Positions 19,786 through 37,119 of a stretch of DNA of 43,661 bases are shown here, one piece after another (position 1 is the stretch's first letter; each line of letters begins with the position of its first letter). The stretch comes from Candidatus Cloacimonadota bacterium (GTDB lineage Bacteria > Cloacimonadota > Cloacimonadia > Cloacimonadales > JAMOQM01). The notes below the pieces were generated by a model. It was not told the origin of the DNA. It was given only the letters and a program-made list of their open reading frames with translations, and made no database searches. Position numbers and translations under genes: made by a program. Where the stretch lies: positions 1 to 43,661 of the forward strand of contig JAMOQM010000085.1 in assembly GCA_027064005.1 (NCBI GenBank), written 5' to 3'.

Positions 19786-21093
19786 TTACCGATTATTTTT
19801 CACCAAATCAGCGTATAAAGGAAATTTAGAACAAAGTTCTTTAACTTTAACTTTAATTTCGGCTAATTTTTCATCATTATTAAAATTGTCTTTCACTTCT
19901 TTGATAAATCCGGCAATAATCTTCATCTCATTTTCTTTCATTCCGCGAGTTGTAACAGCCGGTGTCCCGATTCTAATTCCGGAAGCGACAAAAGGTTTTC
20001 TCGTATCAAAAGGAACTGTGTTTTTATTTGCGGTAATACCTGCTTTATCTAAAGCACCTTCCATTTTTTTACCTGAAGGTCCGCCTTCTGATTCAGGTCC
20101 CAAATCAATTAACATCAGATGATTATCAGTACCGTCAGAAACTAATTTGAAGCCGTTTTCTTTTAAAGCATTGGCAAGAGCAGCAGCATTATTTACTACT
20201 TGTTGTTGATATTCTTTGAAACTATCATCAAGAGCTTCTTTAAAACAAATTGCTTTAGCTGCAATTATATGCATCAACGGTCCGCCTTGGATTCCCGGAA
20301 AAACTTCGCGATCAACATCTTTAGCATATTTTTCTTTACAAAGAATCATTCCACCGCGAGGTCCGCGTAAAGTTTTGTGAGTTGTAGTAGTTACAATATC
20401 AGCGTAAGGAATCGGATTCGGGTGTAATCCGGCAGCAACCAATCCGGCAATATGAGCCATATCAACCATAAAAATTGCGTCAACTTCATCAGCAATTTCT
20501 CTGAATTTTTTAAAATCGATTGTTCTTGGATAAGCGGAAGCACCGGTTAAAATTAATTTAGGTTTATGTTCTAAAGCTAACTCTCTGATTTGATCATAAT
20601 CAAACATTTCCGTTTCTTTTGAAACTTGATAATGCACGATATTAAATAATTCTCCCGAAAAGCTCAAGGGATGTCCGTGAGTCAAGTGTCCGCCGTGAGA
20701 TAATTCTAATGATAAGATTGTATCGCCGGGTTTAATTACACTGAAAAAAGCAGCCATATTTGCTTGAGAACCTGAATGCGGTTGAACGTTAACATGTTCC
20801 GCACCAAATATTTTTTTAGCTCTTTCAATAGCCAATTCTTCAACTTTATCAACATATTCGCAACCGCCGTAATATCTTCCATAAAGTTTGTAGTTGATTT
20901 TACCTGTTTTTTTACTCCAGCGATAAGGATATCCTTCCGCATATTTATTTGTTAAAACAGATCCGGCAGCTTCCATAACTGCACGTGAAACCATATTTTC
21001 CGAAGCAATCAGTTCAAGATTATTAGACTGACGCATTAATTCATTTTGCATTGAAGCATAAACTTCAGGATCAGCTTGTTTGATAAATTTCAT
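19786..21093 (-). CDS. glyA: serine hydroxymethyltransferase (435 aa)
   Basis: PLP enzyme that moves the serine side-chain carbon to tetrahydrofolate, giving glycine and methylene-THF. Visible landmarks: [44 protein letters not shown] and the PLP lysine, Lys240, in [14 protein letters not shown]. One unusual point: where most bacterial enzymes read EGYPGKRYYGGCE, this one has [27 protein letters not shown], an insertion of about 15 residues close to the active-site entrance. It is the last gene of the acyltransferase-rpiB-glyA operon and is linked in function to fhs and folD in this window. Confidence 0.96.
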
Positions 21094-21104
21094 CTTTACC
21101 TCAT

Positions 21105-21806
21105 TTAATTTTTATTTTCATAATTACTTATTTTATCGATTCTTCTTTGATGTCTTCCACCCTCAAATTTTGTATTGAAAAAAATGTCAATAATATCTTT
21201 TGCCAAATACTTTGAAACAAATCTGCCCGGCATAACTAAAACATTCGCATCATTATGCATTCTGCTTAATTTTGAAAAATCGGTGCAATGACAAAGAGCG
21301 GCACGGATATTTTTTACTTTATTTGCGACAATACTCATTCCTATTCCGCTTCCGCAAATAATAATACCTTTATCACATTCTCCGCTGGAAACCGCTTCTG
21401 CAGCTTTGAAACCCGTATCGGGATAATCCATCGAGTCTGTAGAATCAGTACCGAAATCAACAACTTCATAATCGGTTAAAAAAGGTTTTATCGCTTCTTT
21501 TAAATCATATCCGGCGTGATCTGAAGCAAGAGCAATCTTGATATTTTTTTTAGGAAGTAAAGACCCGGCAAAATCAACAACGGATTTGAGAATTTTTTCT
21601 GCATCAGGTAATTTAATATTTCCTAACATTGCAAGTCTTTCTTCAACTTTTTCAGAAGCATTTTTGCTCATATTTTTAAAAAATTTATCGCGAACGCTAT
21701 CATCTACAAAGTGCATCAAAACAACAATTTCTTCCAGAGTTTTACTTTTTAGAATCTTTTGAATCTTTTCATCACTCATTTTTTTTAGTATTTCTAAATT
21801 AAACAT
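21105..21806 (-). CDS. rpiB: ribose-5-phosphate isomerase B with N-terminal FliG_C-like domain (233 aa)
   Basis: Residues ~88-225 are a complete RpiB/LacAB domain: [20 protein letters not shown], the active-site Cys151 in [16 protein letters not shown], and His184 in [18 protein letters not shown]. It interconverts ribose-5-phosphate and ribulose-5-phosphate. RpiB is normally ~145-150 residues; here ~85 residues precede it. They read [20 protein letters not shown], then [35 protein letters not shown], which follow the C-terminal domain of the flagellar switch protein FliG (cf. its LREKxxxNMSxRA and LGPVRLxDVE motifs). Start ATG with GGAGG 5 bases upstream; the gene abuts the preceding acyltransferase stop. 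No frameshift is needed to read the fusion. Confidence 0.92.
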
Positions 21807-22718
21807 TTAATCCTCCGCCATTAAACATGATAAGGCAATACAATATAATTTTGATTTTTCACTTTCACTTCTAGACATTACGACAACCGGTTTAATTGTT
21901 CCTTGAATCAATCCTGCTAACTCTCCACCACCAAAAAGCATCAAACCTTTATAAAAAGTATTACAAGCCTCCAAAGTCGGGAAAACCAAAACATCCGCTT
22001 CACCGTTAATTGGAGTTTGTACACCTTTAATTTTGACAGCTTCTTTATCACAAGCCAGAAAAATATCTAACGGTCCATCAATAACACAATTTTTAATTTG
22101 ACCTCGTTGGTTCATTTTGCAAATAATTGCATCATTAACAGTATTTTGAATAGCCGGATTAACTTTTTCCGTACAACTTACAAGAGCTACTTTTGGATTT
22201 TCAACACCAAATTTATGAGCCATATTTACCGCATATTTTGTCATCGCAATTTTTTGTTTTAAATCAGGAAAAGGAATAACGGCAGTATCTGTAATGAAAA
22301 GTAATTTGTCATATTTAGGAATATCCAAAGCACAAACATAACTCATTACCGCTTTCGGAGGCAAAAGTCCTTTTTCTTTATTTAGAACGGCTTTGAGGAA
22401 TTTATCTGTCCCGATTAATCCTTTCATCAAAACATCGGCATCTCCGTTCCTTACCATTTCAACAGACAATGCAGCAGCTTTAACGTCATTTTTTTCATCG
22501 ATTATTTCGAATTTTTGGTAATCTACTCCCAATTTTTTACATTCTTTGATAATAATTTCTTTATCGCCAATCATTATCGCTTGAGCAAATCCCAGATCCA
22601 CAGCTTTTGAAATTGCTCCTATCGTGTTTGGATCTTGAGCAAAAGTCACCGCTATTTTTTTAGGACTTTTCCCTTCTAATGATTTGATTAATTGATCCAA
22701 TTTTTTAATCGGTTGCAT
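21807..22718 (-). CDS. phosphate acetyl/butyryltransferase family protein, copy 2 (303 aa)
   Basis: PTA_PTB family enzyme (phosphotransacylase): exchanges CoA of an acyl-CoA for phosphate, yielding an acyl-phosphate for ATP synthesis. Landmarks are the family opening SPKKIAVTFAQDPNTIGAIS, DADVLMKGLIGTDKFLKAVL, FITDTAVIPFPDLKQKI and the C-terminal MSRSESEKSKLYCIALSCLM. At ~300 residues it matches Ptb (phosphate butyryltransferase) more than the longer Pta. It is a paralogue of the gene just upstream (8-base gap), with perhaps 40-50% identity by eye. No acyl kinase gene is in the window. The substrate chain length is not determined. Confidence 0.87.
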   Translation of the reverse strand: MQPIKKLDQLIKSLEGKSPKKIAVTFAQDPNTIGAISKAVDLGFAQAIMIGDKEIIIKECKKLGVDYQKFEIIDEKNDVKAAALSVEMVRNGDADVLMKGLIGTDKFLKAVLNKEKGLLPPKAVMSYVCALDIPKYDKLLFITDTAVIPFPDLKQKIAMTKYAVNMAHKFGVENPKVALVSCTEKVNPAIQNTVNDAIICKMNQRGQIKNCVIDGPLDIFLACDKEAVKIKGVQTPINGEADVLVFPTLEACNTFYKGLMLFGGGELAGLIQGTIKPVVVMSRSESEKSKLYCIALSCLMAED

Positions 22719-22726
22719 AAAATCTC

Positions 22727-23629
22727 CTAACCTAACAAAGTTGCTAAAGCTATTGAATATAATTTTGTTTCTTCACTATCACCTCGAGAAGAAAGTATTG
22801 CCGGCACTTTTGCACCTGCAACGATAGCAGCCAAAGGTGAATTTGCTAATTTTGTCATAGATTTATAAAAAACGTTTCCGGCCTCAATATTTGGAAAAAG
22901 CAAACAATCGGCATTTCCGGGAACTTCCCCTTTCAATCCTTTAATTTCAGCTGATTCTTTATCAATCGCAACATCTAAAGCTAAAGGTCCGTCAATAATA
23001 GCATTTTTAATTTGTCCGCGATCTCCCATTTTAGAAAGAATTGAAGCATCAACGCAAGCCGGCATTTTGGGATTAGCTTTTTCAGTGGCAGCAATAACAG
23101 CTAATTTCGGTTTTTCAACTCCGAGCTTAATTGTGGCATTAATCAAATAATTTGCAATTGCAATTTTTTGTTTTAAATCGGGATAAGGAATAATTGCCAC
23201 ATCTCCAACTACCAGAAGTCGATCCATATTAGGATTTTCCACAACGGTAATGTGAGATAAAATTGAACCTTTAGGTACAAGCCCCACTTCTTTATTTAAT
23301 AAAACTCTCATATAATTATCAGTGGAAATAATGCCTTTCATAATGGCATTTCCTTTCCCTTCATTAATTAATTGAACAGCTTTCAAACCGCTTTTTATTT
23401 CTTCCGGTTCATTAACAATAGTGAATTTGTTAGGATCAATATTCATTTCGTTACAAACTTTTTTAATCTTTTTTTCATCTCCGACCAAAGTAACATCTAC
23501 GATACCGAGATCAATAGCTTTTGATGTAGAACCTATAGAATGAGAATCTTGTCCATAAACGACAACAAGACGTTTTTTAGGTTTATTTTTAAGCATTTCA
23601 ACTATTTGTTCCAGTTTAGTAATTAGCAT
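22727..23629 (-). CDS. phosphate acetyl/butyryltransferase family protein, copy 1 (300 aa)
   Basis: First gene of the leftward operon. It has the same fold and landmarks as the next gene: KKRLVVVYGQDSHSIGSTSK, NAIMKGIISTDNYMRVLLNK, VVGDVAIIPYPDLKQKIAIA and SSRGDSEETKLYSIALATLL. Two adjacent, diverged phosphotransacylases suggest two acyl-CoA substrates or a hetero-oligomer. Start ATG is preceded by GGAGG at 5 bases. In amino-acid fermenters such enzymes act with butyrate or branched-chain acid kinases; here the neighbours are rpiB and glyA instead. Confidence 0.87.
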   Translation of the reverse strand: MLITKLEQIVEMLKNKPKKRLVVVYGQDSHSIGSTSKAIDLGIVDVTLVGDEKKIKKVCNEMNIDPNKFTIVNEPEEIKSGLKAVQLINEGKGNAIMKGIISTDNYMRVLLNKEVGLVPKGSILSHITVVENPNMDRLLVVGDVAIIPYPDLKQKIAIANYLINATIKLGVEKPKLAVIAATEKANPKMPACVDASILSKMGDRGQIKNAIIDGPLALDVAIDKESAEIKGLKGEVPGNADCLLFPNIEAGNVFYKSMTKLANSPLAAIVAGAKVPAILSSRGDSEETKLYSIALATLLG

Positions 23630-25614: not shown

Positions 25615-27579
25615 ATGAAACGATTACTACTAACAACATTAGCAACTTTTATCCTAATATTCAGCCTCTTCGGACAATGGACAAATGATCCTTCAACAAA
25701 TACCGCAATATCTACTTTACCGGGTGAAGATGCAATTCCAAAAGTTGCCTCTCTGCCAAATGGCGATACCTACGTCAGTTTTTATGCAAATGAAAACGGC
25801 AATTACAATATTCGCCTTCAAAAACTTAACAAAGATGGAGTTCCTTTTTGGGATAATAATGGAATTCTAATCAGTGATAATCCTTCTATGAGTTGGTTAA
25901 CAGATTGGGATATGACTGTTTCTCAAGACAGTTGTGCCATCCTTGTGTTCCAAGATATTCGAACCGGAAACAATGATATTTTCGCTTATAAAATTTCACC
26001 AAACGGCGATTTTGTATGGGGAAATGATGGATTGCAATTAACCGATGATGTAGCTTTTGACGCTTCTCCAAAAGTTGAAGTAACAAATTCTAATAATACA
26101 ATTATAGCTTGGTCTTCCGAGAATGTAACAAAGATAGCAAAAGTTTCTCCTGAGGGTGATTTACTATTTGGCGGGAATGAAATAATTTTATCTGAAAATG
26201 ATATTTCCATTTCTTGGCCTCAAATTTTGCCTGTTGGTGATGATGATTTTATCTTAAAATATTATAGAGATTCGGGGCAATCTTGGTCTCCAATTCGTAA
26301 ACTTTATGCCCAAAGATATGATTCGGATGGAAATACTGTTTGGGAAAACCCGACTCAAATTAATGAAGCTGCCGGAATATCAGCCTGGACGCAAATTTTA
26401 GGAATGTGCTCCGACGGAAATCAAGGATTTTTTATTACTTGGCATGATGACCGAGATATGAATAATATTTCTCAGGTATATCTTCAACATGTTCTTAATG
26501 ACGGATCTCTCGGATATGCTCAAGATGGAATAGAAGTTTCAACTCGACCGGGTCGCCAAAGATACATTTCTGCAATTTCTTTTAATCAAGAAAACCGGAA
26601 AGTTAGCGTTTTTTGGAGAGAAACAAATATTGACCAAAATATCGACGGAATTTATGCTCAACAATTCGACTTGGAAGGTAATCCGCAATGGGACGCAAAT
26701 GATGTTCAAATATGTCCTTTCGGTGGTAATATGTTTTATCTCATTGGCGTTCAACAAAGTCAAAATAATATATTTGTTTTTTATGAAGAAAATTTCCCTT
26801 CCTCAGCAATCAACAATATGCTAAAAGCTAAAGCAATAAATCAAGACGGAGAATTTGTTTGGTCACCTGAAGAAAGCACAATATGCTCAGTTGAAAGCGA
26901 GAAAATCCATCCGAGTATTGGTAATTTAACTCAAAATCAATGGGTTCTTGCTTGGGAAGACAGACGAAATGAATCAACTGATATTTATGCTCAAAATATA
27001 AATATTTCCGGAGAACTTGGAAATACCGTTTCACCGTCCGGAATATCAGGTCAAATTACTTTGAATGAAGGAACTGCAAATATTCAGGAAGCAAACCTCG
27101 TTATCGCCGGAACAACTTATCATCCCGATGAAACGGGAAACTATTCTGTTGAACTTGATCCGGGAACTTACACGGTAACTTGTTCTTTAGAAGGATATGA
27201 AGATTTTACTCAAGAAAATGTTGTTGTTACTGCCGAAGAATTTACCACTTTGAATATTGAGATGCAAATAATTGTTCCAAATAACGATCCTTCGGTAAAT
27301 ACAATTACTTCTTTGATTGGAAATTATCCAAATCCTTTCAATCCTAAAACACAGATTAGCTTCAACTTACGAACATCAGGATTAGTCAGTATTAAGATTT
27401 ATGATATTAAAGGACAGAGAGTAAATACTTTGATTAATGATGTCCTTTCAGCCGGAAATCACGCAATTGTTTGGACCGGTTTAGACAGCAATAATCGAAA
27501 AGTTTCAAGCGGAATTTATTTTTATAGAATGAAATCCGGCAATTATACTTCCACAAAAAAGATGATTCTTCTTAAATAA
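25615..27579 (+). CDS. type IX-secreted beta-propeller protein with C-terminal sorting domain (654 aa)
   Basis: A Sec signal peptide (residues 1-20, ILIFSLFGQ) leads into ~450 residues of repeated units such as IRLQKLNKDGVPFWDNNGIL, DIFAYKISPNGDFVWGNDG, LYAQRYDSDGNTVWEN and WVLAWEDRRNESTDIYAQN, a propeller-like series. A carboxypeptidase-regulatory-like domain follows (~474-555, ISGQITLNEGTANIQEANLV). The last 85 residues (570-654) are a type A T9SS/FlgD-like sorting domain beginning NYPNPFNPKTQISF and ending STKKMILLK. It should be exported across the outer membrane by type IX machinery, which is not encoded here. The strong AAGGAG site lies in the gap after the TrmB gene. Confidence 0.88.
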   Translation: MKRLLLTTLATFILIFSLFGQWTNDPSTNTAISTLPGEDAIPKVASLPNGDTYVSFYANENGNYNIRLQKLNKDGVPFWDNNGILISDNPSMSWLTDWDMTVSQDSCAILVFQDIRTGNNDIFAYKISPNGDFVWGNDGLQLTDDVAFDASPKVEVTNSNNTIIAWSSENVTKIAKVSPEGDLLFGGNEIILSENDISISWPQILPVGDDDFILKYYRDSGQSWSPIRKLYAQRYDSDGNTVWENPTQINEAAGISAWTQILGMCSDGNQGFFITWHDDRDMNNISQVYLQHVLNDGSLGYAQDGIEVSTRPGRQRYISAISFNQENRKVSVFWRETNIDQNIDGIYAQQFDLEGNPQWDANDVQICPFGGNMFYLIGVQQSQNNIFVFYEENFPSSAINNMLKAKAINQDGEFVWSPEESTICSVESEKIHPSIGNLTQNQWVLAWEDRRNESTDIYAQNINISGELGNTVSPSGISGQITLNEGTANIQEANLVIAGTTYHPDETGNYSVELDPGTYTVTCSLEGYEDFTQENVVVTAEEFTTLNIEMQIIVPNNDPSVNTITSLIGNYPNPFNPKTQISFNLRTSGLVSIKIYDIKGQRVNTLINDVLSAGNHAIVWTGLDSNNRKVSSGIYFYRMKSGNYTSTKKMILLK

Positions 27580-34335: not shown

Positions 34336-35538
34336 CTAATTGTTTCGTTCGCCGGCTTTTGTAATTGCATAACGCGTTAAAAGCGGACCAACAATCTCAG
34401 TAATAATAGTTGTAAAAAGAAGGACATTTATCACAATCTCTGCCAATTCATTTCCTTGCGGACCGTATTGACCACCGCCAAACATTTTACCAACTAAAAT
34501 CGCAAGAGCCACTGCCACACCAACTTGGGGAATTAATCCCATTCCGGTATATTTTCTAACAACGGTTGGTGCTTTTCCTAAGATAGCTCCGAGAGTTGCA
34601 CCTCCCAATTTTCCGGCCGCACGTAATAAAGTATAAACCAAACCCATTACTCCGACAACAGGCAGTAATTTTATGTCTAATCTCGCTCCGGCAAGGATAA
34701 AGAAAAATGCATAAAGCAGAGGTCCGATAGAAGTGGTAATTGTTGATAAAGCCCGATTATCAAAAATAGGATTCAAATTAACCAAAGCCGAACCAAAAGC
34801 CATAATCGACAATAATTCCGAGAAATGGAATTGCTTGCTCAAACCGATAATTAATAAAATTGCAGTTGCAACTCTTATCAAAACTTGATCAGGACTTCTT
34901 AATTTTCTAAAGAAAAGATTAACCAAATAGGCAATAACAATACCGATTGTAACGGCAATAATTATTTCAACAACCGGATGTATCAAAATTTTAGCAACGG
35001 AAAGAGTTCCGCCTTTGATAAGTACTTTTGCTACTGAAACGGAAAACGAAAATATTATCAGAGATATGGCATCATCAATTCCAACCACGGCAAGAATTGT
35101 CGAGGTTAACGGACCTTTTGCTTTATATTGATTTAGAACAACAACCGTAGCTGCCGGAGCTGTAGCAGAAGCAACCGCACCCAAAACCAAAGCCTGATAT
35201 AATTTATCCGGATACATAAAATACATTCCGATACTCACTAATAAAAAGGCTCCAAATGCTTCAAAAAAAACAATGAAAAATATTGATTTACCTAGTTTTT
35301 GAAACACTGATTTTTTTAATTCCGAACCGATTGTAAATGCAATCGCACCGAGAGCCAAATCGTTCAGTATATCTACATCATTAATAAATTGTTGGCTAAA
35401 CAGACCAACCATGGATTTTCCGAAGATCACACCCAATAAAACATATCCGACAACAATTGGCAAATTCAACTTATTTGTAATTCTGTAAGCAAAAATTGCC
35501 AAAACAAGGGCAAGGCTTAGAATTAAAATATTATTCAT
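34336..35538 (-). CDS. CPA2 cation/proton antiporter, copy 2 (400 aa)
   Basis: KefB/GerN-type Na+(K+)/H+ antiporter with about 12 hydrophobic helices. Signatures are VVGYVLLGVIFGKSMVG, the discontinuous-helix region GAVASATAPAATVVVLNQYK, the ion-binding AVVGIDDAISLIIFS (adjacent Asp pair), and a C-terminal LLFTTIITEIVGPLLTRYA. There is no RCK/TrkA-N domain at the C-terminus, unlike KefB/KefC. It is ~60% identical by eye to the antiporter two genes upstream and separated from it by a PII-like gene. The start ATG has AAGGTCG. It is the last gene of the module. Confidence 0.9.
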   Translation of the reverse strand: MNNILILSLALVLAIFAYRITNKLNLPIVVGYVLLGVIFGKSMVGLFSQQFINDVDILNDLALGAIAFTIGSELKKSVFQKLGKSIFFIVFFEAFGAFLLVSIGMYFMYPDKLYQALVLGAVASATAPAATVVVLNQYKAKGPLTSTILAVVGIDDAISLIIFSFSVSVAKVLIKGGTLSVAKILIHPVVEIIIAVTIGIVIAYLVNLFFRKLRSPDQVLIRVATAILLIIGLSKQFHFSELLSIMAFGSALVNLNPIFDNRALSTITTSIGPLLYAFFFILAGARLDIKLLPVVGVMGLVYTLLRAAGKLGGATLGAILGKAPTVVRKYTGMGLIPQVGVAVALAILVGKMFGGGQYGPQGNELAEIVINVLLFTTIITEIVGPLLTRYAITKAGERNN

Positions 35539-35547
35539 AATTCGACC

Positions 35548-35898
35548 TTAATTTTCTGAATGCCAATCAGTATTCTCATCCACAACCATAACAGCCGGGA
35601 TTACAACTAAACGTCCCACTCCTTCTTCTCTAAAATCAATATCGGCATCATCAAAAACTTCAGACAAGGCATCAATCCTATCCATAGAATCGATCGTAGT
35701 TGTTACAATTTTACAATATCTTGATGATGTGCTGTCATGAGGAATTAACCCCGTGAAAAGAGGGATATGTTGATTCAAAACATTATCGGAATTTATGCCG
35801 TCAACAATGGTTCCATTGTCAATTCCGACCGTCGTTAAAGCTAACATAATATCATCTAAATATTCTTCTTTAAAAACTTGTATGATTACATAATACAT
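35548..35898 (-). CDS. PII-like signalling protein (116 aa)
   Basis: A small protein of the ferredoxin-like PII/CutA fold: strand 1 MYYVIIQVFKEEYLDDIMLA, a variable loop rich in Asn/Asp (SDNVLNQHIPLFTGLIPH), the core strand YCKIVTTTIDSMDRIDALSE and a last strand VGRLVVIPAVMVVDE. The uridylylation T-loop of GlnB is not conserved, so this is a PII-like protein of another class (such as those linked to bicarbonate or cation transport). It lies between two CPA2 antiporters, 9 bases from one and 21 from the other, and very likely regulates them. The ligand is unknown. Confidence 0.72.
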   Translation of the reverse strand: MYYVIIQVFKEEYLDDIMLALTTVGIDNGTIVDGINSDNVLNQHIPLFTGLIPHDSTSSRYCKIVTTTIDSMDRIDALSEVFDDADIDFREEGVGRLVVIPAVMVVDENTDWHSEN

Positions 35899-35919
35899 TT
35901 TTATCTCCTCTATTTTTTG

Positions 35920-37119
35920 TTAATTATTCTGTTCGCCTGCTTTAATAATGGCATATCTGGTTAATAACGGACCTACTATTTCGGTAATTATTGTTGTAAA
36001 TAAAAGAATATTCAGAACAATTTTCGAAAGCATTTTCCCTGCTTCGCCATAATCTCCCATTCCGAATATTTTATTAACAACAATGGCCAATCCTACTGCA
36101 ACACCTAATTGTGGTAATAAACCTAATCCTACATATTTTCTAACTTTTAGCGGTGCTTTCCCTAAAGTTGCTCCGATGCTTCCACCTGCATATTTCCCTA
36201 GACCACGGGCTAAAGTATAGAATAATCCCATTAAGCCGATCGTTTTGAATAGAGATAAATCTAAATTAGCTCCGGCTAAAATAAAAAACAGGGCGTAGAA
36301 AATAGGTTCGAAATGTTTTACTATTCCCGTTGATCGATTTGTTAAAATTGGATTTATATTAACCAATGTTGCGGCATAAGCCATAATTGAAAGCAATTCT
36401 GAAACATCAAGAAGATTACTTAAACCGAGCAAAATTGCTATAACAGCTGCTACCCGGATGCTTAATTTTTCAGGATTCCTTATTTTTTTGAAAAAGATAT
36501 TGCTCAGGAATGCAAAAGAAATACCTAATGCCAAAGCAATAGAAATTTCAATGACAGGATGAACAATTACTTTGATAATTGATAAATGTGCTCCACTCAT
36601 CAGAGATTTAGCAAAGGTGGCAGCAAAAGCGAATATTATCAGCGACATTGCATCGTCAATTCCAACCACAGCCAAGATAGTTGAAGTCAGAGGTCCTTTA
36701 GCTTTATATTGTTGAATCACTGCAATTGTTGCTGCCGGAGCTGTTGCTGAAGCCATTGCTCCGAGAATAATTGCTTGATACAATTTATCAGGATTAAGGA
36801 AATACATTGTCAATGTTACAAAAACAAAAGCTAAGCTCGCTTCAAAAAATACAATGAAAAATATTGATTTCCCCAATTTCACAAAGAGAGATTTCTTTAA
36901 CTCTGCTCCAATTGTAAATGCCATTAATCCCAAAGCGAAATCGTTTATAATTGCGGTATTATTGATAAAGTCAGCACTAAAAACTCCAATCACTGATTTT
37001 CCGAAAAGTACACCGAAAACCACATAACCTACAACAACCGGCAATTTTAATTTTTCGGCAACTAGTTCTCCAAGAATAGCAACAGCTAAAACTATTCCGA
37101 TCATTAAAACAGTGTTCAT
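35920..37119 (-). CDS. CPA2 cation/proton antiporter, copy 1 (399 aa)
   Basis: Same family and length as the other copy: VVGYVVFGVLFGKSVIG, GAMASATAPAATIAVIQQYK, the Asp pair in AVVGIDDAMSLIIFA and LLFTTIITEIVGPLLTRYA. Again no RCK domain. Compared with copy 2, the central helix after the Asp pair and the loop HPVIEISIALALGI differ most. It overlaps the EIIA gene by 4 bases (ATGA), so translation is coupled. Two antiporters in one operon could form a heterodimer, since CPA2 proteins work as dimers. Confidence 0.9.
   Translation of the reverse strand: MNTVLMIGIVLAVAILGELVAEKLKLPVVVGYVVFGVLFGKSVIGVFSADFINNTAIINDFALGLMAFTIGAELKKSLFVKLGKSIFFIVFFEASLAFVFVTLTMYFLNPDKLYQAIILGAMASATAPAATIAVIQQYKAKGPLTSTILAVVGIDDAMSLIIFAFAATFAKSLMSGAHLSIIKVIVHPVIEISIALALGISFAFLSNIFFKKIRNPEKLSIRVAAVIAILLGLSNLLDVSELLSIMAYAATLVNINPILTNRSTGIVKHFEPIFYALFFILAGANLDLSLFKTIGLMGLFYTLARGLGKYAGGSIGATLGKAPLKVRKYVGLGLLPQLGVAVGLAIVVNKIFGMGDYGEAGKMLSKIVLNILLFTTIITEIVGPLLTRYAIIKAGEQNN

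Follow-up and report, generated by a model that had tools for sequence, protein, structure and literature searches.

The two protein families closest to the locus described here are the flagellar rotor protein FliG and ribose-5-phosphate isomerase B (RpiB). The C-terminal domain of FliG includes the MFXF hinge followed by a six-helix domain (Calpha1-6) with the torque helix (PMC7355467, PMC11087270), and E. coli FliG touches MotA through R281 and D288-D289 (PMC12505986). Metabolic enzymes have been linked to the FliG-bearing switch before: quinol:fumarate reductase and SpeE have been described as regulating it in place (PMC11087270; fumarate reductase also in PMC6978683). Those enzymes resemble the present case in concept, but they act by binding and carry no FliG domain.

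The window analysed is a stretch of 43,661 nucleotides from a Candidatus Cloacimonadota bacterium (contig JAMOQM010000085.1), in which a single ORF joins a FliG C-terminal domain to RpiB. Both parts belong to known families, and the fusion architecture is new as far as our searches reach: no published report of a FliG_C-RpiB fusion was found in a literature search that covered few subscription journals. To find the fold of a rotor torque domain reused on a core metabolic enzyme is unexpected, and the case offers a natural experiment for telling the parts of Calpha1-6 that serve the fold from those that serve torque.

A FliG C-terminal domain fused in frame to RpiB

The fusion is a 233-aa ORF on the minus strand (21105..21806) with an ATG start and both domains in a single frame. 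Direct reading of the sequence places a Shine-Dalgarno GGAGG at 21812..21816 (-), five bases upstream of the ATG, which is abutted directly by the stop codon of the preceding gene. That gene (21807..22718, -; PF01515, 9e-46) and the one before it (22727..23629, -; PF01515, 1.5e-44) encode paralogues 2 and 1, respectively, of a phosphate acetyl/butyryl transferase (ptb), and both are conserved neighbours. Downstream lies glyA, encoding serine hydroxymethyltransferase (SHMT; 19786..21093, -; PF00464, 1.6e-163). The fusion protein comprises a FliG_C-like domain (residues 1-83; 21558..21806, -), a short linker without an in-frame start codon (residues 84-88; 21543..21557, -), and an RpiB domain (residues 89-233; 21108..21542, -).

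Residues 1-89 of the full protein match the Pfam FliG_C profile (PF01706) with an E-value of 4.3e-16 and a score of 59.6 bits (cut-off 23.3), and the excised 88 residues alone give 4.3e-17. A partial NCBIfam fliG match (2.3e-10) was also obtained. Searching the PDB with residues 1-88 returned only FliG chains, among them the Thermotoga maritima FliG C-terminal domain 1qc7 (E 3e-8). This match begins at residue 1 of both sequences, that is, at the start of the 1qc7 crystal fragment, which places the N-terminus of the fused piece at the MFXF hinge position and shows that it spans Calpha1-6 (the torque domain, D5). An AlphaFold model of the domain has a mean pLDDT of 92 and six helices (residues 4-9, 12-21, 24-33, 36-44, 48-60 and 66-83), with the caveat that its input alignment held three fusions and 15 FliG C-termini and that these true FliGs help to pull the model towards FliG. 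The best Foldseek matches in the PDB were all FliG (TM 0.76-0.84 for the first sixteen; 0.78-0.84 for 1lkv, 1qc7 and 8ucs). The T. maritima structures 1qc7 and 1lkv share the fold (TM 0.82-0.84) at about 28% identity, and the NMS and D-x2-IQ-x2-L motifs are held in common. Residues 1-83 are therefore a FliG C-terminal domain, MFXF hinge plus Calpha1-6. The preliminary description had compared the first ~85 residues with this domain and quoted three FliG-like helices; the comparison holds and the helices are present as described. Neither outcome that would have spoken against it, a missing FliG_C match or an unlike fold, was obtained.

The protein is nevertheless not a FliG. Where FliG has N, M and C parts in one protein of ~340 aa, the fusion holds only the last ~83 FliG residues, lacks FliG_N, FliG_M and ARM-C, has a degenerate MFXF hinge, and is joined to an enzyme instead. 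The N domain of MgtE (PF03448), a distant FliG relative, was considered as an alternative identity and rejected: its similarity to the fusion is weak (E 9e-4, below the curated cut-off; 20 bits vs 60 for FliG_C), and the fusion has no transporter domain. Chance similarity was likewise rejected by the profile and PDB matches, the fold, and recurrence of the fusion.

The other half is RpiB. Residues 91-226 match Pfam RpiB (PF02502, LacAB_rpiB) with an E-value of 1.4e-57, NCBIfam PRK05571 gives 1.2e-55, and NCBIfam subfamily and equivalog scores exceed their curated cut-offs (159.1 vs 138.65 bits for TIGR01120; 187.3 vs 135 for NF004051). Matching structures are 3he8 (E 1.4e-47 by sequence) and, in a Foldseek search with this half of the full-length model, 3he8, 1o1x and 2vvr (TM of target 0.87-0.89); when aligned by structure, 3he8 and 1o1x show 52-54% identity to it. 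The active-site motifs (DH, CGSG/CGTG and HND/HNN) are present in stretches of 14 and 10 residues aligned with 3he8. Judged from these matches, the RpiB part is an ordinary, full-length RpiB, set apart from its unfused relatives, which start directly at the first strand, by an extra 88-residue N-terminal domain. Both domains are confident in the full-length AlphaFold model (pLDDT 91.6, lower around residues 81-90), with a pTM of 0.63 and an inter-domain orientation that is not fixed.

The fusion recurs within a conserved metabolic neighbourhood

Full-length fusions were found in four of 125 genomes of Cloacimonadota, an uncultured bacterial phylum: the window's genome (G000), G002 (L033/L134), G004 (L034/L133) and G010 (L132). 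The four genomes represent four different family-level groups, and the other three proteins are 51-56% identical to that of the window. Each has its own start codon and a Shine-Dalgarno-like purine run before the domain, and their FliG_C scores (41.3, 57.8 and 64.4 bits) lie above the curated cut-off. A mis-assembly, a chance similarity or a wrongly chosen start codon could in principle mimic a fusion, and those records of the relatives that bear a title describe metagenome assemblies. Such an artefact is refuted because the fusion recurs in the separately assembled L033, L034 and L132, and the FliG_C match, the fold and the Shine-Dalgarno sequence make it more improbable still; we give this explanation almost no weight. 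The single frame and dedicated ribosome-binding site claimed in the preliminary description are thus borne out, with the same fusion in three independent related genomes.

In about 100 other Cloacimonadota genomes RpiB is unfused, and matches mostly begin near query residue 88. A contig scan of the genome collection, which finds close relatives only, returned full-length fusions in Cloacimonadota only. A survey of 387 genomes was used to look in other phyla; among its FliG_C hits, 15 loci were opened, most with an ORF of unusual size, and none of these carried RpiB. Across the phylum the gene order ptb, (ptb), rpiB, glyA is common to fused and unfused loci, and glyA adjoins rpiB in nearly all loci examined, which indicates that this metabolic neighbourhood is old and that the FliG piece came into it later.

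Two of the rpiB loci have features of their own. In G002 the second ptb and the fusion are separated by an additional gene (L134:975-1580), judged by eye to be methyltransferase-like and with a DFGCGPRG motif. In G016 an in-frame array of 'KSEISATE' repeats splits the RpiB domain (L136:4752-5627, -); the unit also occurs in a nearby short ORF (L136:7175-7417), which suggests a mobile or spreading short repeat.

The fusion as the only ribose-5-phosphate isomerase

RpiA gave no match in any of the 125 Cloacimonadota genomes, whereas eight control genomes did give one. The window's genome has a single RpiB-family gene; a second RpiB was looked for there, as was a separate RpiA, and neither was found. 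The fusion is therefore taken to be the cell's only Rpi.

Unfused relatives typically begin with MKIA(I/L)ASDHAG, and this methionine is absent in all four fusions. Scanning for in-frame ATG, GTG and TTG codons detected none between residues 61 and 94 of the window's copy and none near the point where RpiB begins in G004, so that an internal start yielding free RpiB was rejected for these two genomes. In G002 the nearest in-frame start is a TTG 26 codons before SDHA, and G010 has an in-frame ATG 19 codons before it, both inside the FliG part. Since RpiB's own start codon has been replaced, we infer that the only ribose-5-phosphate isomerase of these cells is made together with the domain, as far as start codons tell, with a shorter product possible in G002 and G010.

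Origin of the fused domain

In a FliG_C tree the fused domains formed one clade (support 94/84), and in a tree of RpiB plus SHMT the four fusion sequences fell on one side of a branch (47/83). These trees are compatible with a single fusion event, which is probably what occurred. In an FlhA plus FliG tree the four fusion genomes did not form a clade, and holding them together was weakly disfavoured (p-AU 0.035); loss of the fusion in unfused flagellated relatives, or transfer, is therefore possible. An origin from the fliG of the same genome was not supported, as the fused domains fall outside the FliGs of Cloacimonadota. They lean weakly, on long branches (83/82), to a family of membrane-anchored FliG-like proteins in the FliG_C tree.

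A group of proteins of ~430-525 aa has a FliG_C tail, sometimes with a weak FliG_M match, a signal-peptide-like start and an apparent transmembrane segment (L146:2135-4949, -; L148:3090-5988, +). At the two loci inspected, the next two genes downstream are MotA-like and MotB-like, in that order and directly adjoining, and the genomes lack FlhA; the arrangement looks like a non-flagellar rotor-stator operon. Similar ORFs occur at L111-L129 and, in other phyla, at L173-L178. Separately, a genome of another phylum (G243) has two FliG-like C-termini in adjacent ORFs (L168:543-1500, -).

Loss of the stator-contact surface

To place the E. coli residue numbers we used our own mapping onto alignment columns, based on the RAA-x4-DD-x5-P spacing. 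All 22 true FliGs compared have R, D/E and D/E at columns 281, 288 and 289. In the four fusions R281 is lost throughout (N, K, N and S), as is D/E289 (R, A, N and S), where the charge is reversed in the window's copy; column 288 reads E, A, T and K, so that the acidic residue is kept in the window's copy only. P295, invariant in the same 22 FliGs, is N, E, Y or S. Hydrophobic residues are kept at 22-24 of 26 core positions, while only 12-15 of the 62-63 other positions are hydrophobic. The FliG fold has thus been retained in the fused domain, and the motor surface has been lost.

Small FliG_C proteins also occur on their own in the flagellated relatives G008 and G020, where a 91-aa stand-alone FliG_C protein lies directly after cheB (L130:2834-3109, +; L131:7988-8263, -; FliG_C E 4e-11 for L130) in an operon of chemotaxis genes (HDOD, CheY-like, CheX-like and CheB by eye). 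The stator-contact R and the second acidic residue are also lost in these proteins.

Because its stator-contact charges are lost, the domain was probably recruited for a structural or docking role. The most likely reading, which we hold with moderate confidence, is that RpiB has co-opted the FliG_C fold as an N-terminal module for assembly or interaction. The 3'-terminal piece of a fliG-like gene lies in frame before rpiB, within the old ptb-ptb-rpiB-glyA neighbourhood, and stands in place of RpiB's own start codon. Since RpiB enzymes assemble as dimers or tetramers, each assembly would display a small helical bundle in several copies, with a compact module projecting from every subunit. The module may mediate self-assembly or bind a partner other than the stator, and may tune the stability or placement of the enzyme, while catalysis would be that of an ordinary RpiB. 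The preliminary description had proposed an oligomerisation or docking module; this remains plausible, except that docking in the manner of FliG does not fit the loss of stator residues in all four copies.

The divergence of the domain could also mean that it does nothing for the enzyme. A 3' fragment of fliG fused by chance before rpiB would be locked in once the RpiB start codon was lost, and would then drift under selection only for folding and for not disturbing the enzyme. The fused domains have diverged fast: they share only 24-37% identity among themselves, against 76-81% for the FliG_C domains of the true FliGs in these genomes and 67-72% between the RpiB domain of the window and those of the other three fusions; no conserved surface patch beyond the fold was seen among the four, and the original start codon of RpiB is indeed absent. 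Yet the six-helix core has been kept in four family-level lineages, none of which has removed the domain by a deletion and a new ATG, as would be possible if it were useless, and a kept fold with a changed surface also fits a new binding role. We regard a passive passenger as the main rival, though rather unlikely, and prefer co-option as an assembly or interaction module.

Flagella in the fusion genomes

The preliminary description had remarked that the window contains no flagellar gene. The window genes examined indeed included none, yet the organism has flagella: its genome encodes a separate, true FliG and FlhA elsewhere. FlhA, a marker of flagellar export, was detected in only 12 of the 125 genomes and full-length FliG in 11, in each case including all four fusion genomes, so that the three further family-level lineages with the fusion are flagellated as well. 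The chance of this coincidence (4/4 among 12/125) would be ~5e-5 if the genomes were independent; they are related.

This distribution, together with the precedent of fumarate reductase and SpeE, raises the alternative that RpiB is anchored by the domain at the flagellar switch or stator, with pentose-phosphate flux feeding motor behaviour or the enzyme being placed at the motor. The association counts for little, however, because the four genomes are relatives and a single origin of the fusion is probable, in which case it amounts to little more than one data point. The fusion is absent from eight flagellated relatives, the genes around it are metabolic, and the substitutions at columns 281 and 289, with column 288 acidic in the window's copy only, speak against docking. 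We therefore consider such tethering unlikely, although contact with the switch via another face of the fused domain is possible. A slightly less probable form still is that the torque domain anchors the only Rpi of the cell at the C-ring of the flagellum or at a related assembly; if true, pentose-phosphate metabolism would be hard-wired to motility. Co-option as a module with a partner other than the stator remains our preferred reading.

Other genes in the window

The protein encoded at 25615-27579 (+) has CarboxypepD_reg, a C-terminal sorting domain of the Por_Secre_tail type and a FlgD_ig-like match, and is possibly a cargo of type IX secretion style. At 34336-37119 (-), two genes of the Na+/H+ exchanger family (400 and 399 aa) flank a 116-aa ORF.
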